A stretch of 50,988 bases of DNA from a virus (IMGVR_UViG_3300020469_003577:1-50988); one strand, 5' to 3'; counted from the first letter of the stretch, positions 6,431 to 39,509 are shown. The notes: generated from the sequence alone by a model not told the origin. A program made the numbers and translations.

Positions 6431-6621
6431 AGTCCCATACCTCGTCGGTTATATTTTGTTCTTTGGTCTACATCTACATATTGTACTGAATCATATGTTC
6501 CACAATGTGGACATCTTAATTTATCTAATCTAGATGCTTCATTTATTTTCCACTCTTCATCACAAGCTTTATCAGCACATTTATAAATATATGTATGTCG
6601 AATAAAAACCTTGTGCGGCAT
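6427..6621 (-). CDS. Small zinc-ribbon protein
   Basis: 64 residues with one predicted zinc ribbon: C15 and C20 (CADKAC) and a second knuckle CPHC near residue 38. The second knuckle matches the rubredoxin-like CPxCG form; the first has four residues between its cysteines rather than two. Such small ribbons bind nucleic acid or protein partners. It is flanked by TAATG (upstream) and ATGA (downstream) overlaps. Confidence 0.65.
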   Translation of the reverse strand: MPHKVFIRHTYIYKCADKACDEEWKINEASRLDKLRCPHCGTYDSVQYVDVDQRTKYNRRGMGL

Positions 6622-6962
6622 TAGAAGGCCTCCATTACTAATTCATCAATAGCATTTTGGACCTCTTTTCTAGTAGCTTCCATAGTCATCATAATATTTG
6701 CTTGAAACCTTTTCGCTTCTTCATTATTATTAAATACTACTAATGTGGGTACTACTACTATTTTATATTCTGAAGCCCATCTAGAATCAGCAGCTATATC
6801 AACTCTTTGTACCTGACAATCAGTTAACTTACTTAACCATTCAACATCATTAGATTTATTAAAACTAGCATTAAATTCAACAATTACCATGCCATCAGGA
6901 AAATCTTGTCCAATACATAGTGTGTTTATTATAAATAGTATTCCAAATATTATCTTTTTCAT
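6621..6962 (-). CDS. Secreted thioredoxin-fold protein without the CxxC active site
   Basis: 113 residues. Residues 1-19 are a signal peptide (two Lys, then a hydrophobic core, ending near IGQ). The remainder has the thioredoxin layout: a beta strand MVIVEFNAS, a helix, a central strand, and KIVVVPTLVVFNN with the cis-Pro of the VPT motif. Where thioredoxins carry WCxxC there is FNASFNKSNDVEW, so disulfide exchange is not expected. A periplasmic binding or chaperone role is inferred. It has a strong ribosome-binding site (AGGAG) that includes the stop codon of the preceding gene. Confidence 0.7.
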   Translation of the reverse strand: MKKIIFGILFIINTLCIGQDFPDGMVIVEFNASFNKSNDVEWLSKLTDCQVQRVDIAADSRWASEYKIVVVPTLVVFNNNEEAKRFQANIMMTMEATRKEVQNAIDELVMEAF

Positions 6963-6969
6963 AACTCTC

Positions 6970-7254
6970 CTATCTTAATTTATCAATCTTATCCTCAATA
7001 CTCTTCAAATCATCTTTAATCTCCTTCACATCATCTTGAGTTGTCATAATAGTTTGACGGATTAATTGATCTTTCATATCATACTCCATTCTAGTTATTT
7101 CAGGATCAGGTGGTAGAGGGAGTTCCTTAGCCTCAGCTATATCATTTTGTAGTGTAAACCACATACCTACCAATGTAAATATTAACACAGCTATACCTGC
7201 TAACGTTTTTACACTTATATTTAAACTAGTATCTTCACTCAATTCTTTAGCCAT
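6970..7254 (-). CDS. Single-pass membrane protein with C-terminal coiled coil
   Basis: 94 residues. One transmembrane helix at about residues 16-36 (VKTLAGIAVLIFTLVGMWF) is followed by a Pro-rich turn and a strongly charged helix ending in DDVKEIKDDLKSIEDKIDKL, with the heptad pattern of a coiled coil. Small proteins like this beside lysis genes in marine phages are often called holin- or spanin-like, but the topology alone does not prove it. Its TAG stop forms part of the next gene's ribosome-binding site. Confidence 0.65.
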   Translation of the reverse strand: MAKELSEDTSLNISVKTLAGIAVLIFTLVGMWFTLQNDIAEAKELPLPPDPEITRMEYDMKDQLIRQTIMTTQDDVKEIKDDLKSIEDKIDKLR

Positions 7255-7263
7255 TGCTATCTC

Positions 7264-8301
7264 CTAAAATATTACATAGTTAAGCCCAACACTAAAGTTG
7301 TGCCATCTTCTGTTCCAGTATTTGTTGTATCTTCCTTCTACAAATACACCTAAACTTTTATTAAATCTGTAACCAAATATTAGGCCACCTGAATAATCAA
7401 CCCACTGTCCATTGTTATATTTGTAATAAGAATATTTATTTTCTGTATTTATGTGGTAAGGCATTATATTACCCCATGAATGAAACCAAAAGTCTTTTGT
7501 GAAATGGTAATAATCAAATCCAAAAACAGCTGAATATTCTACTATATTAGATAATGAAGCTCTTTGGGATTCAGCATAATCATCTATAACTTGAGGTATA
7601 ATAACCTCTTCCCAAACTTCTTGACTTGTTGCAACAACATTACCAGTCGGATCTGTATAAATCCCATCTAATGTTATATTGTATCCCTCTTGAAGTGCCA
7701 GATATGTATAATGTAAATTGCCATTGTCCAAAACCCAATCTGCTAAAGGGTTAAACCCATAAGGCTCTGCCAGTCTCTGAACAGCCCCTAAATTAACAGA
7801 TAATTTACCAAGCTCACCTATTTTAAACCTGTATCTTTCTGAAGATTCAAAATATCTAATATCAGCAAAACCATCTTCTAAGTACTCTACCTTAGCAACC
7901 CACTTATCTGCTACATACCTTATAAAATGATGTTGATTTGTAAAGTTTACACCTAAGCGTCTTACAAAATCTGTTTCAAATAAATATTCAAAACCATCTA
8001 ATCGGCCTAACGTAGCTGCATCGCTGTAAGAATTTTCTGTACCATTATAAAACGTTAATGCTCTATTTTCATATCCGAATCTTTTAATTTTTCTAATACC
8101 AATTGAGAATGCATAATCAAAAGGTGTTTCAATAGTCTGTTCTTGCAACGTTCCTGATGTTACTGACCATACTTGATCGTCTCCTAAAGAAGTACCACCA
8201 TTTACAGCTGCATAAAATGTAGAATATTTAAATATATTTTTAAAGGTTTGTGCATTGCTATAAGTAGATAAGCACAATAATAATACTAATAATTTTCTCA
8301 T
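7264..8301 (-). CDS. Outer-membrane beta-barrel protein
   Basis: 345 residues. An 18-residue signal peptide (MRKLLVLLLCLSTYSNAQ) precedes a chain of short amphipathic strands rich in Tyr, Phe and Trp, for example RYRFKIGELGKLSVNLGA and KSLGVFVEGRYNKYW. The protein ends in NFSVGLNYVIF; an aromatic last residue is the usual signal for BAM-mediated insertion. It does not show the opening of PorP/SprF proteins. Its ATG overlaps the stop of the T9SS-tailed gene (ATGA), so the two are made together. A phage-encoded host surface protein is inferred; a receptor-masking or cargo-anchoring role is possible. Confidence 0.75.
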   Translation of the reverse strand: MRKLLVLLLCLSTYSNAQTFKNIFKYSTFYAAVNGGTSLGDDQVWSVTSGTLQEQTIETPFDYAFSIGIRKIKRFGYENRALTFYNGTENSYSDAATLGRLDGFEYLFETDFVRRLGVNFTNQHHFIRYVADKWVAKVEYLEDGFADIRYFESSERYRFKIGELGKLSVNLGAVQRLAEPYGFNPLADWVLDNGNLHYTYLALQEGYNITLDGIYTDPTGNVVATSQEVWEEVIIPQVIDDYAESQRASLSNIVEYSAVFGFDYYHFTKDFWFHSWGNIMPYHINTENKYSYYKYNNGQWVDYSGGLIFGYRFNKSLGVFVEGRYNKYWNRRWHNFSVGLNYVIF

Positions 8302-10988
8302 TGTTTTATTACCTTTTTATTAATAGATTTACCTTCATAAGTTACTACAAAGTTATAAACACCATTCGGTAGTTGTGATACATCTAATTGATTTACTTCT
8401 TTATGAAGTTGGTTAGATTTAACTTTTATAATTAATCTACCATTTATATCATAAACATCTAATTCTATTTCTTTATTAGTAATAATATTAACAACATCTT
8501 TAAAAGGATTTGGATATATTACCACTTCAGCATGTTGTAGTAGTTCACTAATATTAAGTCCGTTTTGAACTTGACAGTAATCATATAACCCTTCACATTT
8601 AATATCCCATTGATAATTACAGCAGTTAGGATCTACGGCTATTACCCATGCATAACATGAGTCGTTTAACCAGTAAGGTTCTCCAGGTCCATCAATACAA
8701 CCTGCATCATATAAACAACTAGCATTATCTAAGTTAGCAAATGCATCATAGTTATAAGCTGTTTCATCCATACAGCCTTCAAGTATTTCTATACAAGAAC
8801 CATCTTCTGTGTTGGCATCTATACTATAATTTAATGCTTCAGTATCCATGCAACCGTAAATTATATCAATACAAGTAAAGTCATCAGTGTTTGCTTCTTC
8901 ATTATAATTAAAAGCATTAGGATCTGTACAACCTAATATAGTTGTAAAACAAGCTCCTTCTAACTCTACATTAGCATTTGGGTCATAATTATCTGCAGCA
9001 GGATCCATACAACCAAAATATAAACAAGAGGTTGCGTCATTTAAATTAGCTAATGAATTATAGTTCCAGGCTTGTTCATCTGTACATCCTATAATCCATG
9101 GTTGACAAGAACCATCATCTGTAGTTGCATTCGCATTATATCCATATAAAGTAGAATCTGTACAACCTTCTAAAACAGGAATACATGGTGCAACATTAAA
9201 ATCATATGTATTTGCCAATGGATCATAGTTAAACATTTCCAATCCTTGCCAATTAAATTGCTCAGTACATCCATATACTATAGGCTCACAAATATCACCA
9301 CAATAAGGTAATGCTGAATAAACGTTCCAAAATGGTGGTTGGAATGGTTGTAATGCACCTGCTCCATTGTCTTCAAAAGGATTAACACCACCTGATAATA
9401 ATTCAACTCCATCATCTCTTACAATTGTAAAAGAATTATGCATTGTTTGAAATAATACTTCTTGAATTGGTTGCTGAGGAGCTTGTACTTGAAAATAGTA
9501 TACTTCAACAGACTTATCAGATTCTAATTGTATATTCCATGATTGTTCTTCTATACCAGGACCTAATGTATATATCCATTCTTGTTCTCCATGGAATACA
9601 GCTAAATAAGAATCACCCCATCCATCAGATGCATCATCTTCAATAGTAATAGTATAGTTACAAGGAGATATAAGTTCTAATGAATTAGCATTAGGATCGT
9701 AATTAAATTGACTATCATCAGTACATCCATATATTTTTTCTGTTTGGCAATCTTCAGGAACATTAACATTAGCTGCTAAATCATATTCTAGGAAGTTATT
9801 ATCCATACAACCATAGATAGGTGGTATTTCACAATATGGTAACCAAATGGGACCAGAATAAATAGCTACACCAAACCCTACTTCAGGTAAAGCCCATACT
9901 GTATCTAATCCATCACCACAAGGTTCTGTATCTGCTAATATTACAAAATTACCATCTGTTCCACCATTGTATAAAGATCCTTCCATTCCATCACCATAGT
10001 CATCACTTAATATAAGTTCAACACCTGTAGTAGGAACACATAATTCATATGGTATAGTTGTATTAGCTTGTGAATAATCATATTCTCCACCTACAACATT
10101 GGCTACTGGTTGGCCTGTACTAATATCTGTAAGTATCCAACCTGTCTCACCTGGAAATTGATCTAATGTAATTTGAAGTATCATTTTAGCTTCACCATCA
10201 GAACATACTCCATTAACACAAGAACCATTATCAGCTTCTGCTAAAGGATTATAATTAGGCGATCCTGGATCTGTGCATCCAAATATAGGAAATTCACATG
10301 TAAAGTTTTCTACATTAGCTTCTGGATCAAAGTTTAATGCTGTATCATTTGTACAACCTTCTACAACTGGTAGACATGACCCATCATCTGTGTTTGCATC
10401 TGGGTTAAAATTAAAAGCAGAAGAATCTATACAACCTAAAATTTCTGCATTAGGATCAGGACAATCTCCTTCATCCCAATTGAATTCTTCACAGTCAAAA
10501 TAAACAGGATTTCCTAAATAGGAATAAATCCCATTATCACAATAACCATCACCTATCCAACTAGTAATATTAGTTACATCAGAACCATTACAATCAAGTA
10601 AAGGATATTGACAAGAATCATTATCGACATTTGCGTTTTCATTATAATTTAATGCTAAACTATCTGTACAACCTTCTATATCTGCAGAACTACAGTCTCC
10701 TAATAAAAATGAACCTACACTGCCTTCTAATTCATTAATTGTCCAAGAGACTTCGCCTCCGTAAGAACCGCCACCTACTTCAATTGTATTGCATTCATTT
10801 AAATCAACACATATAGTATCAATTCCTTCTGCTCCTGTAATGAGTGTAAGAGAATTATCACCTACTGTTAAAGTGTTTCCATTCCAACCGTCTCCATATG
10901 AATCATACATATAAACAACTACATCTGTACAATTTTGACTATACAGAGTTGTTGATATTAATAATAATAATAAAAATAACTTCCTCAT
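8298..10988 (-). CDS. Large secreted repeat protein with T9SS sorting domain
   Basis: 896 residues from the ATG at 10988, chosen because AGGAGAG lies just upstream and the signal peptide (MRKLFLLLLLISTTLYSQ) starts there; a GTG at 11021 is open but less likely. After the signal comes a DSYGDGWNGN-type domain. A segment containing DGYCDNG and EGDCP resembles a Lin-12/Notch repeat. About 13 copies follow of a Cys-containing unit of the form GCTD-x-A-x-NY...AN...DGSC, interrupted by two non-repeat domains. The last 75 residues begin IYPNPFKDVVNI and end in GKSINKKVIKQ, the type A C-terminal sorting signal of the Bacteroidota type IX secretion system. Translocation by T9SS and cell-surface attachment or release are expected. 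Acidic, low in Lys until the tail. Confidence 0.85.
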   Translation of the reverse strand: MRKLFLLLLLISTTLYSQNCTDVVVYMYDSYGDGWNGNTLTVGDNSLTLITGAEGIDTICVDLNECNTIEVGGGSYGGEVSWTINELEGSVGSFLLGDCSSADIEGCTDSLALNYNENANVDNDSCQYPLLDCNGSDVTNITSWIGDGYCDNGIYSYLGNPVYFDCEEFNWDEGDCPDPNAEILGCIDSSAFNFNPDANTDDGSCLPVVEGCTNDTALNFDPEANVENFTCEFPIFGCTDPGSPNYNPLAEADNGSCVNGVCSDGEAKMILQITLDQFPGETGWILTDISTGQPVANVVGGEYDYSQANTTIPYELCVPTTGVELILSDDYGDGMEGSLYNGGTDGNFVILADTEPCGDGLDTVWALPEVGFGVAIYSGPIWLPYCEIPPIYGCMDNNFLEYDLAANVNVPEDCQTEKIYGCTDDSQFNYDPNANSLELISPCNYTITIEDDASDGWGDSYLAVFHGEQEWIYTLGPGIEEQSWNIQLESDKSVEVYYFQVQAPQQPIQEVLFQTMHNSFTIVRDDGVELLSGGVNPFEDNGAGALQPFQPPFWNVYSALPYCGDICEPIVYGCTEQFNWQGLEMFNYDPLANTYDFNVAPCIPVLEGCTDSTLYGYNANATTDDGSCQPWIIGCTDEQAWNYNSLANLNDATSCLYFGCMDPAADNYDPNANVELEGACFTTILGCTDPNAFNYNEEANTDDFTCIDIIYGCMDTEALNYSIDANTEDGSCIEILEGCMDETAYNYDAFANLDNASCLYDAGCIDGPGEPYWLNDSCYAWVIAVDPNCCNYQWDIKCEGLYDYCQVQNGLNISELLQHAEVVIYPNPFKDVVNIITNKEIELDVYDINGRLIIKVKSNQLHKEVNQLDVSQLPNGVYNFVVTYEGKSINKKVIKQ
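8301..8525 (-). other. T9SS type A C-terminal sorting domain (Por_Secre_tail-like)
   Basis: Codes the last 75 residues of the repeat protein. Key features are YPNPF at its start, the motif ELDVYDINGRLI in the middle, LPNGVYNFVV, and a basic end. In Bacteroidota these tails take proteins through the outer membrane by T9SS and are normally cleaved on the surface. Confidence 0.85.
8700..10690 (-). repeat. About 13 Cys-rich GCTD...DGSC protein repeats
   Basis: Repeat units of roughly 22-26 residues share GC-(T/M)-D, an aromatic NY or NF, an AN pair and a final Cys, so each could close one disulfide. Some units are near consensus (GCIDSSAFNFNPDANTDDGS) and others drift (two lack a clear DGSC). 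Nucleotide identity between units is low, indicating old duplication. Confidence 0.75.
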
Positions 10989-10996
10989 ACGCTCTC

Positions 10997-11311
10997 CTAC
11001 CGAATATTCTTTTTTAACCACTTTGCAATATAATTAAGTAGCTCTTTCTGTGCTGGTTTAATATCAGATGCTTGAGTCTCAATACCCTTTCTCCAACCCA
11101 TCCATGCATCTTTAATAAGATCTAATCCATCATCAAGATCATACATACCTTCAATATACTGTTCTTTTAAAGGCTTGGCCTCTTCTTTAACCTGCTTTGC
11201 AGCTTGTTTTGCTTGAAACTCTTTCTGAATACTAGCTAATGTTGGTAACGGTGCACCAAATGTTCTATTTTTATACCCGGGTGTATTTTCGTTTAATTTT
11301 TTCTTAGACAT
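10997..11311 (-). CDS. Hypothetical basic helical protein
   Basis: 104 residues, nearly all predicted helix, with a Lys/Ala/Gln-rich centre (FQAKQAAKQVKEEAK) and a C-terminal helix that ends in WLKKNI. The opening NENTPGYKNRTFGAPLP looks disordered. No family recognised; such proteins in the virion region are often scaffold or chaperone-like. Its TAG stop is embedded in the TAGGAG ribosome-binding site of the T9SS-tailed gene, and its own site is another TAGGAG shared with the holin-like gene. Confidence 0.6.
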   Translation of the reverse strand: MSKKKLNENTPGYKNRTFGAPLPTLASIQKEFQAKQAAKQVKEEAKPLKEQYIEGMYDLDDGLDLIKDAWMGWRKGIETQASDIKPAQKELLNYIAKWLKKNIR

Positions 11312-11319
11312 TCTTTCTC

Positions 11320-11535
11320 CTACTTTTTAGCGAACTTTTCAACGCCGGCAATACCAAAACATCCTAGTACTACCCATACAAATGAGTTATAAACAAACTC
11401 GTTAATTACTAAATCTTTACCAACATAGCCTGTTACTAAATCAGCTACCATTATTGCTATCATAATAAGAAATGCTATAAATCCTATTATAGATTTCTCA
11501 TTGTATTCGTTTTCGTCTTTAAAGATATTCCACAT
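11320..11535 (-). CDS. Holin-like membrane protein
   Basis: 71 residues with two predicted transmembrane helices, about 16-36 and 46-64, separated by the loop TGYVGKDLVINEFVYNS, and a short Lys-rich C terminus (KFAKK). The combination ADLVTGY...FVWVVLGCFGIAG is familiar from holin-like proteins of marine T4-like phages. Expected to sit in the inner membrane and permit release or activation of lysis enzymes. Start is supported by TAGGAG 8 bases upstream. Confidence 0.65.
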   Translation of the reverse strand: MWNIFKDENEYNEKSIIGFIAFLIMIAIMVADLVTGYVGKDLVINEFVYNSFVWVVLGCFGIAGVEKFAKK

Positions 11536-12791: not shown

Positions 12792-13033
12792 TAGTTAATC
12801 CTCACCTTATAGCTTTTTATTTCATCTAAGAACTCTGTTACTGTTAGTGTTTTATTTTGATCTGTCTTAATCGTTACATGCTCAAGTAATTCTGGTTGGC
12901 TTGTAGTCATCTTCATAAGAGTACTTAAGCCTTGCCCACCCCAAAATACTTTAAAACTAGTCTCACCTAATAAATTACTATCTAGATAAGCATCAGATTC
13001 ATCATCGCCAGGCATCATTAGATAGTATTGCAT
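12791..13033 (-). CDS. Conserved-type phage protein (YYLMMPGDDES)
   Basis: 80 residues. The opening QYYLMMPGDDESDAYLDSN followed by LGETSF and a Trp-Gly-Gly-Gln-Gly turn resembles small conserved proteins near structural genes of T4-like marine phages. The C terminus is a helix (VTEFLDEIKSY). It overlaps the epimerase gene's end by 16 bases, with no better internal start. Role not known. Confidence 0.6.
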   Translation of the reverse strand: MQYYLMMPGDDESDAYLDSNLLGETSFKVFWGGQGLSTLMKMTTSQPELLEHVTIKTDQNKTLTVTEFLDEIKSYKVRIN

Positions 13034-13866
13034 ATAATATAATCCTCTAAATTTTTAGTTGGCTCCCACCCTAACTTCTCGCGCGCGTTTGATGTATCAC
13101 ATAGTGTTACAGGATATTCTCCTTTACGAGCAGGAATATACTTTCGATCAACACCATACATATCTACTATCTCATTAATAGAGAAATTTTTACCTCTTCC
13201 TAGTTCAAATATATCTGCTCTATGTTCTTTACCTAAGCATTTATAAAACCCATCTACTATATCATCTACATGGGTAAAATCACGACGCTGCTCGCCTGTA
13301 CCAGTTATAGTTAATGGTTCTTTATTTCTAAATTGTCTGTTAAAAATACCTAGAACGGTTGAATACTCACCCTCTTCTAATTGATGCGGACCATATACAT
13401 TATAAAATCTACAAATAGATGTATTCATCCCATAAACCTGAGAATATAAATTACATAGCTGTTCACCTGCATGTTTTGACCATGCATAAGGACTTCCATA
13501 TAATCCATGGTGAAACGAACTAGACCCAGCATATATAAAAGGTATATTTAATTTTCTAGCTAATTCTAAAATATTTAATACGCCATTAACATTAGCCTCA
13601 ATAGTTGGTTGTGGATTTTTTAATGATGGTTGTATTCTAGCTAATGCAGCTAAATGAAATATAGCATCAAGATTTTGAAATTCTGATCTATCTATTATAC
13701 TCTTATTATTAATATCTATATTATGATAAGTACAACCTAGCTGTTCATTAGAATGCTTACCTGTCGAATAATTATCTATTGAAATTACATCGTGATTTTC
13801 TATAAGTAATCTCTTTACTAAGTTTGTACCCACAAACCCAGCACCACCTGTTACTAATATTTTCAT
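13018..13866 (-). CDS. NAD-dependent nucleotide-sugar epimerase/dehydratase
   Basis: 282 residues, extended short-chain dehydrogenase. The NAD-binding GGAGFVG is at residues 8-14 (GxxGxxG), the YxxxK catalytic pair lies in SPYAWSKHAGEQL near residue 129, and a substrate-binding region includes RRDFTHVDDI. It likely interconverts or dehydrates UDP- or dTDP-sugars to supply the nine neighbouring glycosyltransferases. A UDP-glucose 4-epimerase-like activity is the closest guess. Start has TAAGGA upstream, where the TAA is the stop of the preceding gene. Confidence 0.85.
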   Translation of the reverse strand: MKILVTGGAGFVGTNLVKRLLIENHDVISIDNYSTGKHSNEQLGCTYHNIDINNKSIIDRSEFQNLDAIFHLAALARIQPSLKNPQPTIEANVNGVLNILELARKLNIPFIYAGSSSFHHGLYGSPYAWSKHAGEQLCNLYSQVYGMNTSICRFYNVYGPHQLEEGEYSTVLGIFNRQFRNKEPLTITGTGEQRRDFTHVDDIVDGFYKCLGKEHRADIFELGRGKNFSINEIVDMYGVDRKYIPARKGEYPVTLCDTSNAREKLGWEPTKNLEDYIICNTI

Positions 13867-13874
13867 ATCGTTCC

Positions 13875-15398
13875 TTAAAATATTTTTATTGGATTATTTT
13901 TTGTGATACGTCCATTGACTATACCCCATTTATTAATAAATTTATTATGTGAGTGATGCTCAACTGCTTGCCATTCTCCTCGCCTTGATGTTTTACTACC
14001 AAAGTGATAAACAGCGGCAGATGAGACTTTTTTATTAAAACCAGCTATATCGTATCTAAGCATAATATCATCATCTTCTCTGAACTTAACAAATGTATGA
14101 CCATCAATGCCGATATAATCTCTTTTAAATACAGCAAAGAATAATTGTGAACCACCATCAATAACTTTATCTTCCACCTCAAACTCACCCCACTTATCTT
14201 TATCAAAATCATCTAAAGAGTAACCACAATCTAATATTACTTTACCAGGATATGTATCAGGATATTTAGGAGGCTCTACTCTTGTGTAAGTTAAGACAGT
14301 ATTAGGAGTTATATCACGCCGTATCTTTTCAACAAACCCTTCCTTTAATATCATATCATTGTGAAGTAAAACAACAATGTCACCAGTAGCTTTAGCGATA
14401 GCATTATTATAATTAACACCTAACGTAACATTATCTATATGATCAATTACCTCAATAGTATCATCATTACCATATAATGATTTAATATTATTAAGTAGAT
14501 TTAACGTATAATCTCGATTAGTACCATCTGAAGGTATAATTAGAGATACTTTATTAACTCTACCTTTAATACCACATATTTGATGTTGCGAATCAAATTC
14601 AGGCATTCCTCCCCACTTATCTACAAACTTCTTTGCATTCACTCTTTCAGCTGTTGATTGACGTTCTGATGTTGTATTATTATTTTCCTCTAATCTATGA
14701 CTCCCTCTAGCTCCAAAATGGTAAACAAGACTTTTTGTAGTAGTTACAAATTTAAATCCTTCACGATACATTCTCCAAAACAGGTCATGATCATCCCAAC
14801 TAGTAGGAGCAAATATAGGATCATTACCACCAATAAAATCCCAATCACGCTTTTTAATTAGAGCACTCACTCCAAGTCCCCTCGTATACTCTATATCATT
14901 TTCCTCTTTGAATTCTTCAGACCATTTATCAAATATTTCAGTATCAAATGAATCATAGTAAGCTCCAAAAGCATCTTGTGGTACAACTATATTTCCTGGC
15001 GTTGTTTGTGACCCGGGAAACATTTGTGGCTCTATTCTAGCTGAATTAACCCATAGACGCTCATTAGGATACTTATCAAAAAGATGCAATAATGATCTAT
15101 CCCAATCTTTAGTAACGTAGAAGTCAGAGTGTAAGAACATTATATATTCTGTTTTAACTCTATCAGCACAATAATTCATCCCACCTCCTATACCTTTAGG
15201 TGAGTCATTCTTATCTATATAGACATCTAGATTATAATGCTCTTTAACACTCGCTAACCATTCATCTGTACCATCAGTACAATTCTCTGCATGAATAACA
15301 AACGGAGCATCTTTATAATAGCTATTTTTACGAACAGATTCTATTGCTATTTTTAAGTATTCTAAATTATTATATGTTGATATACAAAATGTTATCAT
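13875..15398 (-). CDS. Tandem-domain family 2 glycosyltransferase
   Basis: 507 residues from the ATG at 15398, which overlaps the preceding stop (ATGA); an in-frame TTG lies nine bases upstream. It contains two GT-A domains. The first opens MITFCISTYNNLEYL, with metal-binding HSD in MFLHSDF. The second opens VSLIIPSDGTNRDYT, with HND in VLLHNDM. Each half ends in the same kind of segment (VYHFGARGS and VYHFGSKTS), so the gene looks like an internal duplication. Two sugar-transfer steps on one glycan are possible. Confidence 0.85.
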   Translation of the reverse strand: MITFCISTYNNLEYLKIAIESVRKNSYYKDAPFVIHAENCTDGTDEWLASVKEHYNLDVYIDKNDSPKGIGGGMNYCADRVKTEYIMFLHSDFYVTKDWDRSLLHLFDKYPNERLWVNSARIEPQMFPGSQTTPGNIVVPQDAFGAYYDSFDTEIFDKWSEEFKEENDIEYTRGLGVSALIKKRDWDFIGGNDPIFAPTSWDDHDLFWRMYREGFKFVTTTKSLVYHFGARGSHRLEENNNTTSERQSTAERVNAKKFVDKWGGMPEFDSQHQICGIKGRVNKVSLIIPSDGTNRDYTLNLLNNIKSLYGNDDTIEVIDHIDNVTLGVNYNNAIAKATGDIVVLLHNDMILKEGFVEKIRRDITPNTVLTYTRVEPPKYPDTYPGKVILDCGYSLDDFDKDKWGEFEVEDKVIDGGSQLFFAVFKRDYIGIDGHTFVKFREDDDIMLRYDIAGFNKKVSSAAVYHFGSKTSRRGEWQAVEHHSHNKFINKWGIVNGRITKNNPIKIF

Positions 15399-16252
15399 GC
15401 TTCCCAATACTCCTTAACTAGACTCTGAACTTCACCAAAGGTTAATTTAGCTTTATCAGAAATATTAACTGATAACATAGATTTTAAATAATCTTTACCT
15501 TCTAAGTACCTATTGCCTATTTCAGTAACAAATATGCCATCTAGAATATACTGTTGGACGTTATGCTTACCACAGCAATACATAAAGTACGTATCATCAT
15601 CACCATACGATTTCAAACCAGCTGGCAGAGGTATTGCTTCGAATGCACTAGATTTAAATAGATTAAACCACCCACCACCAAATTTTGGCTGCTTGTTTAA
15701 TTTAATAGAAATAACACTATTTAATACTGTATCATCTATTGAATAAGAATCAAAGTAATCACGATGATTGAAAGGTTCATTAATAAATTTATTATTAACT
15801 AACACATCCCATGATGAATCCCAGTACTTAATAATTTGTGGGGAGATAAAAAAGTAATCATCGGTACAAACTTTACTTGAGTTTATAAGGCATGGTAGAG
15901 TAGCTTTTGAAAAATACATGTCACTATCTAACCATATAATGAAATCTTGTTTCTTTTTTGAACATACTCGTCGCTTATCTGTACAACCTTGTATTGAATT
16001 ATCTGTATCAAATTCAGTAACAAAATATTGCTTTACTAATTTCTCTAAATATTTAAATTTATTTACAAAAAATTCTTTAGGTAATTGTGAATTATTCCAA
16101 TCCACTATAGTATCACTTATATTCATTGTTATATCCCATACAACAGTATCAGAAGAATCAATATGATATGTAGAAGGTATCATGCAATGAACCTGTCTTT
16201 CTAAATCATCTATTTCCCATGGCTGAATATACTGTACAATTCTATATAGCAT
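15395..16252 (-). CDS. GT-A-type glycosyltransferase
   Basis: 285 residues. A putative metal-binding DSD lies in FIIWLDSDMYF near the middle, followed by GGGWFNLFKSSAFEAI and a GDDDTYF acidic motif. The N terminus (MLYRIVQYIQPWEIDDLE) is unlike standard family 2 openings, so it is a divergent member. Overlaps the previous gene by 11 bases and couples to the tandem glycosyltransferase by ATGA. Donor and acceptor are unknown. Confidence 0.7.
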   Translation of the reverse strand: MLYRIVQYIQPWEIDDLERQVHCMIPSTYHIDSSDTVVWDITMNISDTIVDWNNSQLPKEFFVNKFKYLEKLVKQYFVTEFDTDNSIQGCTDKRRVCSKKKQDFIIWLDSDMYFSKATLPCLINSSKVCTDDYFFISPQIIKYWDSSWDVLVNNKFINEPFNHRDYFDSYSIDDTVLNSVISIKLNKQPKFGGGWFNLFKSSAFEAIPLPAGLKSYGDDDTYFMYCCGKHNVQQYILDGIFVTEIGNRYLEGKDYLKSMLSVNISDKAKLTFGEVQSLVKEYWEA

Positions 16253-16970
16253 AATTTGCTCCTTCTTGTCTGTAACGGATAAACATTTCTTTATATATTG
16301 AGTGATTTAAAAAATAATTATGCATATTGCCATCTGCTTGCTTACAGAAATCTGACTCTTTTATTTCTGTAGCACCAGCTTTAAATGTTTGACTGACAAG
16401 GTGAGCTAATGTTATGTTGTCACTAACTCCAACCTTTAACCCATGACGCTCTGCTATCATTCCTGAATAGAAATCAGCTCCCCAACCTAAAAATAATTCA
16501 TCAGGAAACTTTACAATAGCTTCAGCTAAATCTCTTCTTATTACAGGACACATAAAATCAATAAAAGGTACTTCCCTTACTGTACCTGTTCCCCAGTTCC
16601 ACATCTGCTTCCAAAAACATTGATCAACACCGATTTGGTTGATAGCTGGAGAGTATAGTGCTAGATCTTTTTCCTTCATCTCAGCTAACATGTTAGTTAA
16701 TAGTTTAGGTCCATGAAAAATTAAGTCGTTATTAAACAGAATAAAGTATTCATGGCGTGTTGTTAAAAAGTATTCTAAAACTACATTCAATCCACCACCA
16801 AACCATAAATTCTCTTCAAGTTCATGTGTTGTGCTTTTTGCCTTTTTAGTTTTAGAACCATTATCTAATACCATAAGCTCATGACTATTGAAAGATTTAT
16901 CATGACGCAATTGATTAACTAAATTATCAGTTAAATCTGGTTGATTATAATTAAGTGTAGCTATTAACAT
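16242..16970 (-). CDS. Family 2 glycosyltransferase
   Basis: 242 residues, GT-A fold. It opens MLIATLNYNQPDLTDNL, has VLDNGS as the nucleotide-binding segment, and FILFNNDLIF where the DxD metal motif is expected. The remainder includes GWGADFYSGMIAERHGL, typical of rhamnosyl- or glucosyltransferase-like members. Overlaps its neighbour by 7 bases. Substrate unknown. Confidence 0.8.
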   Translation of the reverse strand: MLIATLNYNQPDLTDNLVNQLRHDKSFNSHELMVLDNGSKTKKAKSTTHELEENLWFGGGLNVVLEYFLTTRHEYFILFNNDLIFHGPKLLTNMLAEMKEKDLALYSPAINQIGVDQCFWKQMWNWGTGTVREVPFIDFMCPVIRRDLAEAIVKFPDELFLGWGADFYSGMIAERHGLKVGVSDNITLAHLVSQTFKAGATEIKESDFCKQADGNMHNYFLNHSIYKEMFIRYRQEGANYAI

Positions 16971-17893
16971 AAAAATACTTCCTTGAATTTATTCATAACA
17001 TTTTCTGGTGTAAACTCTTTATAGCAATTCCAATCTTTATTTTCTATATCGCTTTTTGTAATATACATTAATAAAGAATACAATTCATCATAATTTTTAT
17101 AATAAAATCCCTTATCACCTAAAGTATCGATATGATTACGTTCTGGTGATTCACTATATGTAATTACAGGTTTATTACATGTTGAAGATTCTGCTATTGT
17201 TAACCCAAATGTCTCTCCTCTATAGCGACCATGTAGTAGTATATCAAATGTATTAATAAATGCTACCTTTTGGTTTAAATCGAATATAGGGTTAATAAAT
17301 AATACATTATCCAAATTACAGAAAGGGTCATGATTCATAAATAAGAATACAATATCATCGCGTTTATTTGCAACGTCAATAACTACATCTCTTGCAAACT
17401 GTAAATCGAAATTGTTACCACCATACCAACCTACAACAAATTTATCCTGAATATTAAAAGTTTTTTTATAATTGATAGCTTGCGGTACATTAGGAAGGTT
17501 TACCATATGAGGTACCCATGGTATATTATATCGTGTACCTAACCATTTAGATATACCAACATATTTATCTCCATGCTTATGATTGCCATGAAATACAACA
17601 TGTATTAAATTTGTTATTCCATCAATAGTTTTATCAACTTCACCAGACCTTAGATAATAGATCGCATCACATTCTGTCTTTTTAACTATTGTAGGTACAT
17701 CAATGTCAAAGTCATTGTATTTATAGACTTTAAACTCACTTTCAAATTTAGCTAATGTACTCATATCAGAGTCTTTATTTACTAAAATAATAGACTCATT
17801 ACCAAGTATATTGCGATTATGTAAAGCATAATCATATGTAGCTACGTATGTACCTCTTAAACCTAATTTATTGCAGTGGAAAGCTATTTTCAT
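16964..17893 (-). CDS. GT-B glycosyltransferase
   Basis: 309 residues. It opens MKIAFHCNKLGLRGTYVATY, a Rossmann-type start, and the C-terminal half has VVGWYGG and GETFGLTIAESSTCNKPVITY, the E-x7-E donor-binding motif of families 1 and 4. It is shorter than most GT-B enzymes (usual length 350-400), mainly in the N-terminal domain. Coupled by ATGA to the gene before it. Sugar not predictable. Confidence 0.8.
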   Translation of the reverse strand: MKIAFHCNKLGLRGTYVATYDYALHNRNILGNESIILVNKDSDMSTLAKFESEFKVYKYNDFDIDVPTIVKKTECDAIYYLRSGEVDKTIDGITNLIHVVFHGNHKHGDKYVGISKWLGTRYNIPWVPHMVNLPNVPQAINYKKTFNIQDKFVVGWYGGNNFDLQFARDVVIDVANKRDDIVFLFMNHDPFCNLDNVLFINPIFDLNQKVAFINTFDILLHGRYRGETFGLTIAESSTCNKPVITYSESPERNHIDTLGDKGFYYKNYDELYSLLMYITKSDIENKDWNCYKEFTPENVMNKFKEVFLC

Positions 17894-18642
17894 ATATTAT
17901 ATAAATTCTCTACTATTTCATAACTATCATTATTGTAAAAACTTTTACCATTAAAATCTCTAGAAAACTCTTCATTCACTAACGATATCCAATCTGTATC
18001 ATTTCTATGACCCCATGTTGTTACTTTAGTTATCATCTGCTCTTTAGTTCTAACCCAAGAGAAGTGATGAATCAATGGTAAATTATTATGTAATACCATA
18101 CGCTTTTTTCGTAATTGATAGACATTATTTAAATCATAATACTGCTCTCTATCCAAACCTGATAATGAACTATCATTAACAGCGTATTCTTTACGAACCA
18201 TTACAGCAGAATCTTCAAATGATAGTGAACGATATATTGGTTCCCTAAAGTATGTATAATTTGCTATCTTTATACTATCATAATTCTCAAACGGAAACTC
18301 TTTTAAAAACTCATTAAACGCCTTAACATCAATAATTTCATCAGCATCTAGAAATAATACCCAATCTATATCATCATCAACTAAAGAAACACCAATATTA
18401 CGTGCTGTGAGTAACCCATACCTTGTATGATTACCTTGCTCCCATTCGAACGAAGTAACATTAACATTAGGATACTCATTTGCTAAATTAGTAACTGACT
18501 CCATATCTTCAGGTGTACCATCCCACCAATGAGAACTAACAGGAACAATAACCTGATCGCTCACTTTTAAAGCATTATCAATAGTCTTTCGAATAAAACG
18601 CTCATCATTGCTACAGTAGCATATAATTGTAGCTAATTTCAT
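17890..18642 (-). CDS. Family 2 glycosyltransferase
   Basis: 250 residues from ATG 18642, supported by GGGAGA upstream and ATGA overlap with the previous stop; a longer open frame has no ribosome-binding site. The opening MKLATIICYCSNDERFIRK and VLFLDADEII (DxDE) are typical of this family. TARNIGVSLVDDD marks the nucleotide-sugar pocket. It is followed by a C-terminal helical region. One of six GT-A genes in the cluster. Confidence 0.85.
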   Translation of the reverse strand: MKLATIICYCSNDERFIRKTIDNALKVSDQVIVPVSSHWWDGTPEDMESVTNLANEYPNVNVTSFEWEQGNHTRYGLLTARNIGVSLVDDDIDWVLFLDADEIIDVKAFNEFLKEFPFENYDSIKIANYTYFREPIYRSLSFEDSAVMVRKEYAVNDSSLSGLDREQYYDLNNVYQLRKKRMVLHNNLPLIHHFSWVRTKEQMITKVTTWGHRNDTDWISLVNEEFSRDFNGKSFYNNDSYEIVENLYNI

Positions 18643-19328
18643 ATTTTCTCCCAATCTGTTAACGGTGCTAACCATCTTGTTTCACCGTGAGTAGAGAATC
18701 CCGGTATACTTGTTATTAATAATTCATTATTAGCACGCAGTTCTAAAAACATTTCATAATCACTTGGATGTTTTGAATTTGTCCACTTTCTTAATATAGG
18801 CTCAACCTTTTTAAGAGTACTAACTTTTGCTGCAAATGTCATAGTTGTGGAGTTAGTAATCTTCCAGTGACAAGAGTTAGTTAAATGTACTCTTGTATCT
18901 TCTGCTCCTCCATCGCAATAAGAATTACCACCCATGGCTGGTTCTAGATATTTATCTGGATGATCATATAATGACACAAAAGATGCACCTAATTCAAACC
19001 CTTCCTGAATTACATCTTCAGATTGCGGTTTATGAAGATAATCGTTTTCAATAAAGTATATTATTTCTCCATCATCATAATTTAATGCTTCATTTAAAGC
19101 TATATTAAAAGTACCAGCACCATGACCAATTGAAACATAATTAATATGATCTTTTGATATATACTTTTGAATCATATCATTTGTTTCAGGCGATATATTA
19201 TCGGCTATAATACTCCAATCTGACTTTTTAAAAACATTTATAGCATTAGATAAACAAGTTTCATTACTTATATATGCAGGCTTTACTTTATTATAACCAG
19301 TATCAGATAATCTATAAATAACCTTCAT
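18639..19328 (-). CDS. Glycosyltransferase-like protein
   Basis: 229 residues. There is an internal GT-A pattern: GTFNIALNEALN, then IIYFIENDYLHKP with END in place of DxD. The region SCHWKITNSTTMTFAAK follows. The N terminus (MKVIYRLSDTGYNKVKP) is unlike typical family 2 openings, so this is a divergent branch. Coupled by TAATG and ATGA to its neighbours. Activity inferred from fold pattern and context. Confidence 0.7.
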   Translation of the reverse strand: MKVIYRLSDTGYNKVKPAYISNETCLSNAINVFKKSDWSIIADNISPETNDMIQKYISKDHINYVSIGHGAGTFNIALNEALNYDDGEIIYFIENDYLHKPQSEDVIQEGFELGASFVSLYDHPDKYLEPAMGGNSYCDGGAEDTRVHLTNSCHWKITNSTTMTFAAKVSTLKKVEPILRKWTNSKHPSDYEMFLELRANNELLITSIPGFSTHGETRWLAPLTDWEKI

Positions 19329-19951
19329 TAAATTCCTTCGTAAAATTCGTTTTGTTTTTCTTGTCGCTTTATACCTTTATGGTGCCATAAACATAAATCA
19401 CCATAATCATCAGGAAAACTTGAAAAAGTCTTGTAACCTATTAATTGTTCATGGACAGATTTAGTCCATCTAATACTATCTTTATTTTTATACAATCGCA
19501 TTTGATAATCAGGATAATTAATATAACCGTGCTCATCTACTCTCCATCTCCATTTTTGAATATGTTCAGGTGTTATATCAAATACCCGATTTTTTCTAGG
19601 TACCCAAAAGGCGTCTGTTGTTTCAAAATTCTCTTGAAGAATATCAGGAAGATTAGATATAAAAGATGCATCAGGAGTTTCATCTGCATCAATTTGAAAT
19701 ATCCAATCACCTGTACAGTTGTTATTTAAATTATTTTTAAAGTCAGCAAAATTATTATTTAAAGCATACTCTATAACCTTTACAAAATCATACTTCTTTA
19801 GTACATCGTATACTTCAGGAGTAGTATTTCCTTTATCACACTGTACTATAACCTCATCTTCCTTTCTAATATAAAATGATAGTAAATGAAGTAATCGATT
19901 TATTTCTACATGTTCATTACAAACAGGTATGGCGTAACTAATTTTTATCAT
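19328..19951 (-). CDS. Family 2 glycosyltransferase, possibly leaderless
   Basis: 207 residues with a standard opening (MIKISYAIPVCNEHVEINRL), the nucleotide-binding VIVQCDKGNT, and the DADE metal motif in WIFQIDADETPD. The C-terminal segment (YQMRLYKNKDSIRWTKSVHE) is typical of the SunS/lipopolysaccharide-glucosyltransferase branch. There is no ribosome-binding site: the ATG lies 3 bases after TATATTAAG of a promoter-like motif. It heads the transcription unit down to the epimerase. Confidence 0.85.
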   Translation of the reverse strand: MIKISYAIPVCNEHVEINRLLHLLSFYIRKEDEVIVQCDKGNTTPEVYDVLKKYDFVKVIEYALNNNFADFKNNLNNNCTGDWIFQIDADETPDASFISNLPDILQENFETTDAFWVPRKNRVFDITPEHIQKWRWRVDEHGYINYPDYQMRLYKNKDSIRWTKSVHEQLIGYKTFSSFPDDYGDLCLWHHKGIKRQEKQNEFYEGI

Positions 19952-19954
19952 AAC

Positions 19955-19987
19955 CTTAATATACGATATTTATTTTATATTGACAAG
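19955..19987 (-). promoter_or_regulatory. Promoter for the distal glycosyltransferase genes
   Basis: Minus-strand CTTG, 20 bases, TATATTAAG preceded by ATCG. The start codon at 19951 is 12 bases from the first T of TATATT, so a transcript would begin at the ATG. The motif straddles the end of the preceding unknown gene. Confidence 0.65.
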
Positions 19988-20412
19988 AATTTTTTAATAA
20001 GTTTTTCATCAAAATTATAATCTATCAATCTTAATGAATTAATTTTTTTAACATCAAAAGTACGGTAACAATCTTGCAAATTATTCTTCAACTTACCAAT
20101 ATAAAATCTTCGAGATGATACGTCCATTACTACTTTAGAAATATTAACACCTCTGTACTTTTGAAATCTTGGAATATATCGAATTCCAACATCATCAACA
20201 AAATCAGTATAAGCATTATGAGATACATTCTCCATAGATACAGCATGCATCTTTCCTTGATAATTTGCATTCAGTACTGTAAGGACATAGCGTTTGAGAT
20301 TACCTTTTATTGGTTTATACATCATCTCAATCACCATGCCCTTCTCTAACTGAGCTTTTGATAATGCTACTTTTTTATTAGCTCTACGTAAATGCTCATT
20401 AAGGTGCTTCAC
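19975..20412 (-). CDS. Conserved-type hypothetical protein, GTG start
   Basis: 145 residues. It begins with GTG at 20412, overlapping the preceding TAG stop (TAGTG), with AGGA upstream. A charged helix (NEHLRRANKKVALSKAQLEKG) is followed by a beta-rich body (RYVLTVLNANYQGKMHAVSM; VSSRRFYIGK). I recall related-looking proteins in T4-like phages but cannot name the family. It interrupts the glycosyltransferase run together with the next gene. Confidence 0.6.
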   Translation of the reverse strand: MKHLNEHLRRANKKVALSKAQLEKGMVIEMMYKPIKGNLKRYVLTVLNANYQGKMHAVSMENVSHNAYTDFVDDVGIRYIPRFQKYRGVNISKVVMDVSSRRFYIGKLKNNLQDCYRTFDVKKINSLRLIDYNFDEKLIKKFLSI

Positions 20413-20780
20413 TATAGCATTCCTAAATATACTAGCGCTTCTTGAAACTTATCAAATTTCTTAGCTTGTTCAACAGCAACACGAGTTTCATCCACATCTG
20501 AGTATTGAGATTTCATATCTTCTTCCATGGCTATTACAGGTGCTACCAACCAATGATAACTTTCTGTTGTTCCTGCTGGAAATAGAATACCACCGGGCAA
20601 TGCAATCGTTGTAAGGTACCAAATAGCACCATCTTTAGTCTGCTTTGTATCTCGAATCAATTGAGTGCATGTTGTTTCATACTTTTCAATAGCTATATTA
20701 TTATCTATAAAACTTTTACGAGTGAAGTAGCCTGATTCTAAATCAAGCTTATCTCCACCTTCATCTATTACTGAACTCAT
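20412..20780 (-). CDS. Hypothetical protein
   Basis: 122 residues, MSSVIDEGGDKLDLESGYF at the start. Contains a Gly/Pro-rich turn region (ALPGGILFPAGTTESYHWLV) and a C-terminal helix (FDKFQEALVYLGML). No family recognised. Coupled by ATGA to the preceding GT-B gene. With its neighbour it may be an ordinary phage gene pair into which the glycosyltransferase block was built on both sides. Confidence 0.6.
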   Translation of the reverse strand: MSSVIDEGGDKLDLESGYFTRKSFIDNNIAIEKYETTCTQLIRDTKQTKDGAIWYLTTIALPGGILFPAGTTESYHWLVAPVIAMEEDMKSQYSDVDETRVAVEQAKKFDKFQEALVYLGML

Positions 20781-22084
20781 ACCTTGGTACCTACCTTTTT
20801 AAGCTTTGGAAGCTTTGGTAATTTTAGAGGAACCTGCACCGAAAATTGTGGTACATTATCTTTAATTAAGTTAGCAAACACTTCATTCATTTTTTCAATA
20901 GTAAAATTATCTTTAATATATTGTGTTTGCTTTCGTGTCTGCTTATTAATATCTTTATAATTAGAGTGACACTCTTTTAATATATTTGAAGCAGCTCCAT
21001 AATTTACATAAAACCATTTAGACTCAGGTATTATTACTTTATCCCATACAGCTGATTTATGGACTTGTTTTAATTCACCTGGTAACCCAATACCATATTC
21101 ACTAATAAAATCAACATGTCCTGACCAGTTACTAGCTATAACAGGTTTACCTGTCATACCGAATTCAAGTAATGGTCTACCAAAGCCTTCACCGTGTGTA
21201 AAACTTACCATTGCTTTTACTTTAGGGTGATTGTACAATCTATTTAAATCGTTCTGCTCTACATCGCCATGAAGGAGATATATAGGAGGAACGCGAACAC
21301 CTCTAAAATAACTCTTAATAGTGTTAATCTTTTTAAGAATCTCTTCACGATCTTTAATACTATATGTTGCAGAAGATGTTTTTAATATAAGTGCAGGTTG
21401 ATTTTTCAAAGACTTATCTTTAAACGAATGAATAAAAGTTTGTATTAACCCTCCTATATCCTTTCGGTCATGACCAAATTCACCTTGAAGCCAATGACCA
21501 ACAAACAGGAAGCAATAATCTTCTTTAATATCTTTCATAGAATCAATTAATACGCTTGACTCTTTTTTAAATTCCTTTTCAGATATTTTATTAAAGACAT
21601 TGGTATCTAGTCCTTCAAATAATACATGAACAGGCTTTTCAACTTTTAACTGACCTGTCACATTACCTGAATTCTTATCTGTCTGATCATATATCGTATT
21701 TTCAAATGCAAATTTAGAATGTTCAGAAGGAACAATAATCATATTCATACGATTACAGCCTGCAACCCATTCAGCAGAAACTAAATCAGTTTCCATTCCT
21801 GCTGTAATACCAATATTGTATTCACCTACTGGTTGGAACTCATTAGGTACAGTTATTTGAACCCATACATTAGGTTTTGCGTTGAGGGAAGTAATTAAAC
21901 GACTAATAATATCATCATCTTTACCACTTGTCAAGCTATTACGGGGACAACCACCCCAAACTTGGTCTAGTACTTTAACATTAAATTTATCCATAGCTAT
22001 AAAACTACGAATAATATCTCTCGAATGATCTCCATAACCACTACGACTAGTAGCGGGACAACTTATAACTAATTCTGGTTTCAT
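20777..22084 (-). CDS. GT-B glycosyltransferase
   Basis: 435 residues. The N-terminal Rossmann-like domain opens MKPELVISCPATSRSGYGDH, a glycogen-synthase-type GYG. The C-terminal domain has FLFVGHW and GEGFGRPLLEFGMTGKPVIA, the E-x7-E donor site. Between them is a helical insert rich in Lys. Family 1/4 assignment is firm; donor sugar is not predictable. Start ATG overlaps the previous stop as TAATG. Confidence 0.85.
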   Translation of the reverse strand: MKPELVISCPATSRSGYGDHSRDIIRSFIAMDKFNVKVLDQVWGGCPRNSLTSGKDDDIISRLITSLNAKPNVWVQITVPNEFQPVGEYNIGITAGMETDLVSAEWVAGCNRMNMIIVPSEHSKFAFENTIYDQTDKNSGNVTGQLKVEKPVHVLFEGLDTNVFNKISEKEFKKESSVLIDSMKDIKEDYCFLFVGHWLQGEFGHDRKDIGGLIQTFIHSFKDKSLKNQPALILKTSSATYSIKDREEILKKINTIKSYFRGVRVPPIYLLHGDVEQNDLNRLYNHPKVKAMVSFTHGEGFGRPLLEFGMTGKPVIASNWSGHVDFISEYGIGLPGELKQVHKSAVWDKVIIPESKWFYVNYGAASNILKECHSNYKDINKQTRKQTQYIKDNFTIEKMNEVFANLIKDNVPQFSVQVPLKLPKLPKLKKVGTKV

Positions 22085-23517
22085 TATATTAACACTCCAT
22101 CTGGATATTTAATCGGTTCAACATCTGTATTTATTAATACGAAAGGTTTTGCTTTAGTCCATGTCTCTAAACATTTATCAATAGATTTTGCCATTTCAGA
22201 ACACATACCTTCAGCTGTAAAGCCATTTGCAATAGCCCATTCACGTCCTGCTAATCCGCACGCTTCTCTCTCCTGACTATCCATTTGATACCACCATTCC
22301 AATGCTTTAGTTATTTGCTCTATACTAACTCTAGAATCATAAATATACGGTGTCATTGGAGAGCCTTGAAGATTCATTTGTGGCCACAATGGATATGTCC
22401 ATTTACCCCAATCTTTAGAAATCTCACCTGAACTATTACTTGGAACTTCAGCAGACAAATGCTTAATGTCGAATGGTTCTCCTTCTTTTGTGGTAAATCC
22501 CATTTGATCTTGTAATCCACCTACTACAGTAGCAATAGTTGGAGTACCAGCCATCATTGATTCCATATGAGATAAGCCAAATCCTTCAGCTGATGATGGG
22601 TTACATGTTACATCAACAACATTATATAGTAAATTTAATTGCTCTGTAGTTATTTTACTGCCACTAAATATAATTGTATAGTCAGGGCAAAGTGCTTTCC
22701 CAACAGCAGCAAGGTCAGTACCATGTTGATCTACAACATCGGTGTGAAATATTATAGCGCACTTTTCTGATTTATCTTTTGGTAAAGAATCACAGAACTT
22801 CTTATATGCTAACATAAGATCAGAAGGTCGCTTACGTTGAATATTTCTACTATTAAAAAGAGCTATAAAATCAAATTCCCTACCATGCAATATTTCTTTA
22901 CGAAATTTTAAGTACTCCTCGCTCAGTTTATCTACAGGATAGAATTTTTTATCATTTATACCGTGAGGAACATAAGTGAGATCTACACCTTCTACTCTAG
23001 GTTTACGCTGACAAACATGTTTATTAATATTATATGTTTGTTTTGATATTGCCATGAGAAGATCACAAGATTCGTAAGCATTTTCATTCCAATGAGGGAA
23101 CGGTAGATCATCCCATATATTATAATACATAATAGGAATCATGCGTCTTAATTCATTTTCCATATCATATAACCATCCCCAAAATCTTGGATCAGTGAAA
23201 TGTAATATTGCATCAACCTTTTCCTGTTGTATAATTTGACGGACCATATTAGGATTACCATAGCCTGATACACCTAAGACGCGTACGTATGCATCTTTAA
23301 CACCTGTTTTCTCTTGAACTTCTTTAGATATATCAGAAAACTTGTCTTGTTCAGGATGATTTACTGCTCCTCCAATCTGAACCCAGTCATATTTATCAAC
23401 AGTACCCATGACAAATTCTCTTGCCATTGTACCTATTCCAGAATGGAGTCTCAAATCATCAGAAAGTAGTAGTATTTTTTTCTTTTTATTTTGTTTTTGT
23501 AACCTTGGTATTTCCAT
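22084..23517 (-). CDS. GT-B glycosyltransferase
   Basis: 477 residues. After a basic N-terminal extension (QKQNKKKKILLLSDDLR) comes a GT-B enzyme. HSGIGTMAREF marks the N-terminal domain, FIALFNSRNIQRKRP the linker, and AEGFGLSHMESMMAGTPTIA the donor-binding E-x7-E. The first gene of the cluster in transcription order, two bases after the stop of the ribbon-helix-helix gene with AAAAGG as ribosome-binding site. Confidence 0.85.
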   Translation of the reverse strand: MEIPRLQKQNKKKKILLLSDDLRLHSGIGTMAREFVMGTVDKYDWVQIGGAVNHPEQDKFSDISKEVQEKTGVKDAYVRVLGVSGYGNPNMVRQIIQQEKVDAILHFTDPRFWGWLYDMENELRRMIPIMYYNIWDDLPFPHWNENAYESCDLLMAISKQTYNINKHVCQRKPRVEGVDLTYVPHGINDKKFYPVDKLSEEYLKFRKEILHGREFDFIALFNSRNIQRKRPSDLMLAYKKFCDSLPKDKSEKCAIIFHTDVVDQHGTDLAAVGKALCPDYTIIFSGSKITTEQLNLLYNVVDVTCNPSSAEGFGLSHMESMMAGTPTIATVVGGLQDQMGFTTKEGEPFDIKHLSAEVPSNSSGEISKDWGKWTYPLWPQMNLQGSPMTPYIYDSRVSIEQITKALEWWYQMDSQEREACGLAGREWAIANGFTAEGMCSEMAKSIDKCLETWTKAKPFVLINTDVEPIKYPDGVLI

Positions 23518-25252: not shown

Positions 25253-25433
25253 TTTTTACTATTTTAATTATCTTCTCTAAATAAACAGCTAAATCCATCG
25301 CTTCTTCTTGAGCATGTGTTAACCACTCTACATTAGTTAAATCGGTGCGCTCCATTGTAACACCATATTTATTTTTACCTAACTCAGCGCGCTTCTGAAT
25401 CTTTTTAGCAACTGCATCTTCTATCTTACTCAT
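25245..25433 (-). CDS. Small MazG-like nucleotide pyrophosphohydrolase-type protein
   Basis: 62 residues: KYGVTMERTDLTNVEWLTHA followed by QEEAMDLAVYLEKII. The EExxD motif and the preceding helix are those of compact MazG-like proteins, which hydrolyse nucleoside triphosphates. It is only about two-thirds the length of usual members, as often seen in phages, and probably works as an oligomer. May clean up modified or excess dNTPs, or act on signalling nucleotides. Confidence 0.65.
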   Translation of the reverse strand: MSKIEDAVAKKIQKRAELGKNKYGVTMERTDLTNVEWLTHAQEEAMDLAVYLEKIIKIVKNG

Positions 25434-28011: not shown

Positions 28012-29659
<1,648 letters not shown>

Positions 29660-36725: not shown

Positions 36726-36738
36726 TTTGTTTTTCCTT

Positions 36739-39507: not shown

Positions 39508-39509
39508 AC

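Follow-up and report, generated by a model that had tools for sequence, protein, structure and literature searches.

The stretch IMGVR_UViG_3300020469_003577:1-50988 (50,988 nucleotides; hereafter the window), a virus contig according to its IMG/VR source record, carries on its minus strand a gene for a predicted substrate of the type IX secretion system (T9SS), which we refer to as the cargo gene. It belongs to a conserved module of four genes, the others encoding an outer-membrane beta-barrel protein (OMP), an inner-membrane coiled-coil protein of 94 residues and a secreted thioredoxin-like protein (Table 1). The cargo gene runs from an ATG at 10988 to a stop at 8298 and encodes 896 residues; an alternative GTG start at 11021 would give an open reading frame (ORF) of 907 residues at 8298-11021. 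An earlier note on this DNA had placed the gene at the same coordinates and with the same length but missed the strand, and its single-gene account overlooked the module; a plus-strand reading of 8298-10988 was dropped because of the many stops there.

Table 1 Features of the cargo gene and its neighbours in the window (AF2, AlphaFold2; aa, amino acids).
Feature	Position	Strand	Evidence
T9SS type A cargo protein, 896 aa (907 aa from GTG 11021)	8298..10988	-	ORF, profile matches, IMG/VR homologues in 193 stretches
Putative Sec signal peptide, residues 1-17, then Gln18	10938..10988	-	Sequence; Gln18 alignment; Q-rule pattern
Cys-rich GCxD...NYxxxANxDDGSC units (13), clustered between other domains, residues 106-762	8703..10673	-	Unit count in sequence
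LNR-like segment, about residues 132-176	10461..10595	-	By eye from sequence
Beta-rich domain 1, YGDG motif, about residues 262-385	9834..10205	-	AF2 strands, pLDDT mostly 79-90
Beta-rich domain 2, about residues 440-560	9309..9671	-	AF2 strands, pLDDT mixed 35-85
T9SS type A sorting domain, residues 824-896, seven predicted strands	8301..8519	-	TIGR04183, PF18962, AF2, Foldseek, profile match
Phage outer-membrane beta-barrel (OMP), 345 aa, signal peptide, C-terminal NYVIF	7264..8301	-	43-member alignment; AF2; PDB barrels
94-aa protein, one predicted transmembrane segment, C-terminal coiled coil, no signal peptide	6970..7254	-	73/80 OMP-fetched loci
Thioredoxin-like protein, secreted, 113 aa, without CxxC	6621..6962	-	PF00085; 75/80 OMP-fetched loci
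Holin-like hydrophobic protein, 71 aa, frequent neighbour	11320..11535	-	In 40 of the cargo-fetched loci

The cargo protein ends in the tail YPNPF...YDINGRLI...LPNGVYNFVV...KKVIKQ, which had been read as a T9SS type A sorting signal, and profile searches bear this reading out: TIGR04183 matched the protein at 44.0 bits (curated cut-off 23; E 1.6e-11) and PF18962 at 50.4 bits (curated cut-off 27; E 2.7e-13), scores that are far beyond chance. Against the window DNA, TIGR04183 scored 49.1 bits at the only such domain in the record (8301-8519). The same model matched the tail in 38 of 39 diverse cargo homologues, and a sorting domain was present in 16 of the 17 phage records searched, as a single copy in 15. 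AlphaFold2 predicts seven strands between residues 822 and 895 (block pLDDT about 70-89), and the model is that of a compact seven-strand Ig-like beta-sandwich at the extreme C-terminus. In Foldseek comparisons with the C-terminal domains (CTDs) of Flavobacterium johnsoniae translocon cargo, the modelled tail resembled 8glk_D (NucA complex; TMt 0.81), 8gl8_D (0.76) and 8gl6_D (0.73), and it also resembled the mirolase CTD 8qb1_A (TMt 0.68); its fold thereby matches the CTDs of NucA, RemZ, RemA and mirolase. A family sequence profile, which is independent of the fold, retrieved 8glk_D, 8glj_D and the RgpB CTD 5hfs_A. A glycine of the Lb3b4 loop, essential for function in RgpB, and the C-terminal motif are required for export (PMC11285876); the corresponding loop glycine, Gly850, is invariant in the cargo alignment (39/39), and Lys895 is conserved in at least 90% of its members. 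The assignment of the cargo as a predicted T9SS type A substrate is, at the level of sequence, well supported.

The other end of the protein is hydrophobic and signal-like (MRKLFLLLLLISTTLYSQ/NC), closing with LYSQ, and Gln18, the residue after the predicted signal peptide, is found in 39/39 members of the cargo alignment. Glutamine in this position is the Bacteroidetes Q-rule (PMC5837995), and 91 of 106 cargo relatives have a Q-rule-like N-terminus as judged, here and below, by a regular-expression heuristic. Between the two ends lie the Cys-rich units, which the earlier note had recognised as GCTD/DGSC repeats, as it had the signal peptide; the protein holds 46 Cys, a further GCxD-related segment follows the 13 units at residue 763, and the number of units per homologue ranges from 8 to 23. 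The LNR-like segment, also remarked on earlier, reads DCNGS..GDGYCDNG..FDCEEFNWDEGDC; the likeness holds by eye, but the Pfam Notch/LNR family gave no match in the cargo at E 0.01. A Pfam search detected no carbohydrate-binding family in the cargo, and Foldseek matches of the whole model outside the tail had low TM-scores and were not used.

Relatives of the cargo were sought in IMG/VR with an alignment of six relatives, and 193 stretches were found to encode them, several of the long ones (127-171 kb) also bearing the T4-type capsid protein gp23. The genes of the window include those for DNA polymerase B, a DnaB-like helicase, UvsX, gp32, a clamp-loader AAA protein, ribonucleotide reductase and a GroEL-like chaperonin. 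No gp23 match lies within the window, which may be a fragment; membership of the T4-type phages is indicated by the replication genes of the window and by gp23 in the 127-171 kb relatives. Because so many IMG/VR stretches encode relatives, and long contigs among them also carry T4-type capsid genes, we conclude that the cargo gene is not host DNA. The carriers would be uncultured marine phages related to T4, a large group presumably infecting Bacteroidota. Among the cultured phages of INPHARED, tblastn at the thresholds used found no match to the cargo, the OMP or the 94-residue protein, and megablast with the first 25 kb of the window found none either; the tail alone drew a single gut phage record at E 5e-4, besides two weaker matches. 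The DNA polymerase of the window (30717-33245, minus strand) has its closest INPHARED counterpart in Microcystis phage Mel-JY01 (43.6% identity), other cyanophages standing well below at about 30%; the host on record for Mel-JY01 may be worth re-examining.

The linkage of the four genes was visible from two directions, the neighbours proving no less constant than the cargo. Loci fetched with the cargo contained the barrel in 74 cases, the 94-residue protein in 66 and the thioredoxin-like protein in 73. Retrieval with the OMP only, which makes no presumption of the cargo, gave 80 loci, with the cargo in 72/80, the 94-residue protein in 73/80 and the thioredoxin-like protein in 75/80; several of the loci without the full module are short or end beside it. 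The two sets of contigs overlap, and the samples are therefore not fully independent. Gene order is cargo-OMP-94-thioredoxin or, in part of the family, OMP-94-thioredoxin-cargo, the order of the last three being conserved among the OMP-fetched loci. In the window the OMP gene overlaps the cargo gene by 4 nucleotides, and of 74 distinct junctions between the two, 64 show an ATGA four-base overlap. The OMP itself is encoded in at least 586 viral stretches. Large fibre-like ORFs flank the module in relatives, and three very large ORFs without a signal peptide (2,500-3,300 residues; L015:13-7542, L016:386-10300 and L008:473-8074) contain GCxD/DGSC units resembling the cargo's own; these are perhaps tail-fibre proteins that share modules with the exported protein.

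The OMP model has about 12 long strands (pLDDT 76.5), and 98 of 107 relatives show a Q-rule signal peptide pattern. Among 43 OMP members there was no match to the PorV or PorP/SprF models of Pfam and NCBIfam at E 0.1, and searches of Pfam, NCBIfam and PDB sequences in general returned nothing meaningful. By fold, the PDB offered generic small barrels only (CymA, OmpG, NanC and OpcA, Z about 10); PorV and PorP were not singled out in this search, although Foldseek sampling does not exclude them. In BFVD one unnamed protein was matched (A0A516LKJ4, TM 0.70). None of 91 of the 94-residue proteins has a Q-rule signal peptide, whereas 98 of 102 thioredoxin-like relatives do. PF00085 scored 22.4 bits against the 113-residue protein, slightly below its cut-off of 23.5, and the protein has VEFNASFNKSNDVEW where CxxC is expected.

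Comparing the window with a relative (L007) gave a nonsynonymous rate (dN) of 0.12 and a synonymous rate (dS) of 0.53 for the cargo, and dN 0.10 and dS 1.11 for the OMP; these values indicate purifying selection on both. Within the cargo, the tail evolves no more slowly than the body (dN 0.28 vs 0.11, same pair). The cargo diverges faster than the OMP (mean identity 53% vs 68%), and there are pairs in which the OMP is more than 90% identical but the cargo near 65%, a pattern that fits a surface-exposed part. Pieces of the cargo body are common to host Bacteroidota proteins at low identity, and an origin of the cargo from a host T9SS protein is therefore plausible. One cargo relative (L076:9974-11854) has no sorting domain and a different C-terminal end, and provides a natural comparison case.

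We computed the signal, the sorting domain, the linkage and the selection, and from these infer that the host T9SS exports the cargo, that the OMP is its partner, and what purpose this serves. The reading we prefer, held with somewhat less than even confidence as a whole, is that the module remodels the surface of the infected cell such that the exported cargo and the barrel block re-adsorption. In a first step, Sec would take the cargo across the inner membrane with cleavage before Gln18, and the type A CTD would pass it to the host type IX translocon for display on the infected-cell surface or for release, an arrangement in which the cargo is viral and the machine belongs to the host; SprA is encoded in both metagenome-assembled genomes (MAGs) that contain a phage contig and not in three long phage contigs. 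Sequence and model together make this step very probable. In a second, the cargo would act with the outer-membrane barrel encoded by the next gene, assisted by the coiled-coil protein in the inner membrane and the thioredoxin-like protein in the periplasm, which gene linkage renders likely. More specifically, the barrel might be a dedicated outer-membrane partner of the cargo, either a docking site or a virus-encoded PorV/PorP-type counterpart; we consider this doubtful, but if true it would give these viruses a two-part surface complex of their own making, seated on the host type IX machine. In a third, the Cys-rich repeat body and the barrel would mask or replace the surface structures bound by the phage's own fibres, such that infected cells and debris cease to adsorb virions, a form of superinfection exclusion comparable to that of Llp for T5. 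We advance this last step tentatively, by analogy.

A block to re-adsorption is favoured because envelope proteins are encoded beside fibre-like genes, because F. columnare resists phage when its T9SS or gliding genes are mutated (PMC9233685), and because T5 Llp offers an example, its gene adjoining the receptor-binding gene and its product blocking adsorption (PMC9586334). Llp is likewise a phage envelope protein encoded beside tail receptor-binding genes, and would act similarly if the third step is right; unlike the cargo and barrel, it is a small lipoprotein of the periplasmic face, and the likeness proposed is one of function and gene position. The position of the module near fibre-like genes is only suggestive of superinfection exclusion, and several points weigh against the reading as a whole. 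Early expression is common among exclusion genes, whereas the module is placed near structural genes. No recognised enzyme or binding domain was found in the cargo body. The tail is degraded in one relative (L005; 16.5 bits, a weak match) and absent in another (L076); CTDs can moreover be species-specific (PMC11285876). The signal peptides were judged by a pattern heuristic and not by a trained predictor. Finally, the binning of a phage contig into a MAG does not prove which host the phage infects.

Other roles would be compatible with much of the same evidence. A possible, though unlikely, account is that the cargo is an adhesin or glycan-binding protein, released or displayed, which sticks infected cells and debris to particles or cells and brings new hosts near virions. 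The repeat-rich, Cys-stabilised architecture with its variable unit number, the presence of GCxD units in the very large ORFs, fibre-like and without a signal peptide, that these phages also carry, and the body pieces common to host T9SS proteins would all suit such a function; the Pfam search, however, detected no carbohydrate-binding family, and the constant barrel partner is left unexplained. Alternatively, the module may serve egress, with the i-spanin-like coiled-coil protein, barrel, thioredoxin-like protein and cargo weakening the outer membrane at lysis or keeping virions off debris. We judge this rather improbable: the 94-residue protein does consist of a transmembrane segment followed by a coiled coil, a small hydrophobic holin-like gene is nearby in many loci, and the OMP-94-thioredoxin order is kept, but a PHROGs search matched no lysis family, and lysis has no need of a protein 600 to 1,150 residues long that is exported by the T9SS.

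One may also postulate that abundant phage cargo jams the T9SS, filling the translocon and thereby cutting the export of host receptors or defences. Phage sensitivity of F. columnare requires T9SS and gliding genes (PMC9233685), and of the host-facing elements of the cargo the CTD is the one most obviously conserved; jamming would nevertheless not call for a body that is long, conserved and under purifying selection, and a tail that evolves no more slowly than that body is not what it would lead one to expect, leaving the idea quite improbable. There is similarly little prospect that the cargo is attached to virions once outside the membrane, or that a structural gene has been misread: the cargo gene adjoins tail-fibre-like genes, and GCxD units are common to the large ORFs there, yet the protein retains its signal peptide as well as its sorting domain, the neighbouring OMP and thioredoxin-like proteins are predicted to be exported too, and virions assemble in the cytoplasm. 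That host DNA was misassembled into a phage contig, a concern raised by the related domains encoded in Bacteroidota hosts, is ruled out for practical purposes, given that the same module recurs in dozens of independent viral contigs of up to 171 kb, T4-type gp23 being present on several of them, and that among 296 Flavobacteriales genomes the OMP occurs in one, a MAG containing a phage contig, and in host genomes appeared only within MAGs holding such contigs; the earlier note, which had taken the gene as viral and proposed a search for homologues in phages and hosts, was right on this count, and neither of the two findings it had named as fatal to its reading, misassembled host DNA or a lack of hits to the sorting-domain models, was borne out.

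Returning to the preferred reading of surface remodelling, phage-encoded T9SS cargo is itself already known, contrary to the earlier note, which had taken it as undescribed. T9SS sorting domains were described in crAss-like phages by de Jonge et al. in 2019 (PMC6949934), and in 2020 Bellas et al. reported that Cryophage has three genes for T9SS type A cargo, already suggesting that the host system is hijacked and superinfection excluded (PMC7468147). The Cryophage proteins share the type A sorting domain with the cargo described here, and the hijacking proposal is the same, but they are an endoglucanase, a GH39 protein and a PA14 protein, located in variable islands that are not the same in closely related genomes, whereas the present cargo is, as far as its sequence indicates, a repeat protein without enzymatic function whose module is conserved and includes an outer-membrane barrel. 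In crAss-like phages the sorting domain likewise occurs in genes close to structural genes; those are gut phages, however, with the domain near BACON-repeat ORFs and no partner module reported. Host type A cargo (F. johnsoniae NucA and RemA, Porphyromonas gingivalis RgpB) has the same seven-strand C-terminal domain, while the present cargo is virus-encoded and its body, as far as tested, not enzymatic. PorV (of the FadL family) and PorP/SprF are also outer-membrane beta-barrels found beside or working with T9SS cargo; the 43 OMP members show no NCBIfam or Pfam match to these families, and by fold only generic barrels came up. Secreted proteins of P. gingivalis phages are similarly fitted to the Bacteroidota signal peptidase rule, in a paper that does not mention T9SS, type IX or sorting domains (PMC10367356). 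The open-access literature on T9SS and phages held no description of a cargo-barrel module, which is weak evidence of absence because only open-access literature was covered. What the papers searched do not describe is a conserved cargo module with a virus-specific orphan barrel: phage T9SS cargo, earlier pictured as scattered variable genes, is conserved in a marine phage group and tied to that barrel. If the remodelling reading holds, viruses of some of the main polymer-degrading bacteria of the ocean would routinely rebuild the surface of infected cells via the type IX machine, and the question raised is what service the barrel renders the cargo.

Several other gene groups of the window, all on the minus strand, merit mention. 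Adjoining the module is a sugar cluster of about 10 kb (13018-23517) in which an NDP-sugar epimerase gene is accompanied by seven or more glycosyltransferase-like genes (GT2, GT1/GT4), and which could glycosylate the surface or the virion; its genes were mostly not found near the module in relatives. Genes at 34587-39971 resemble those of 7-deazaguanine synthesis (QueC-like, a QueE-like radical SAM protein, QueF-like and a QueD-like PTPS), with a phosphoribosyltransferase nearby, which suggests modified bases in the phage DNA. The GroEL-like chaperonin gene (phrog_5725, E 2.8e-157) is followed by a gene for a 95-residue protein that is GroES-like by eye (28031-29947), and a homologue of the UV-endonuclease UvdE lies at 25426-26451 (E 1.5e-54).

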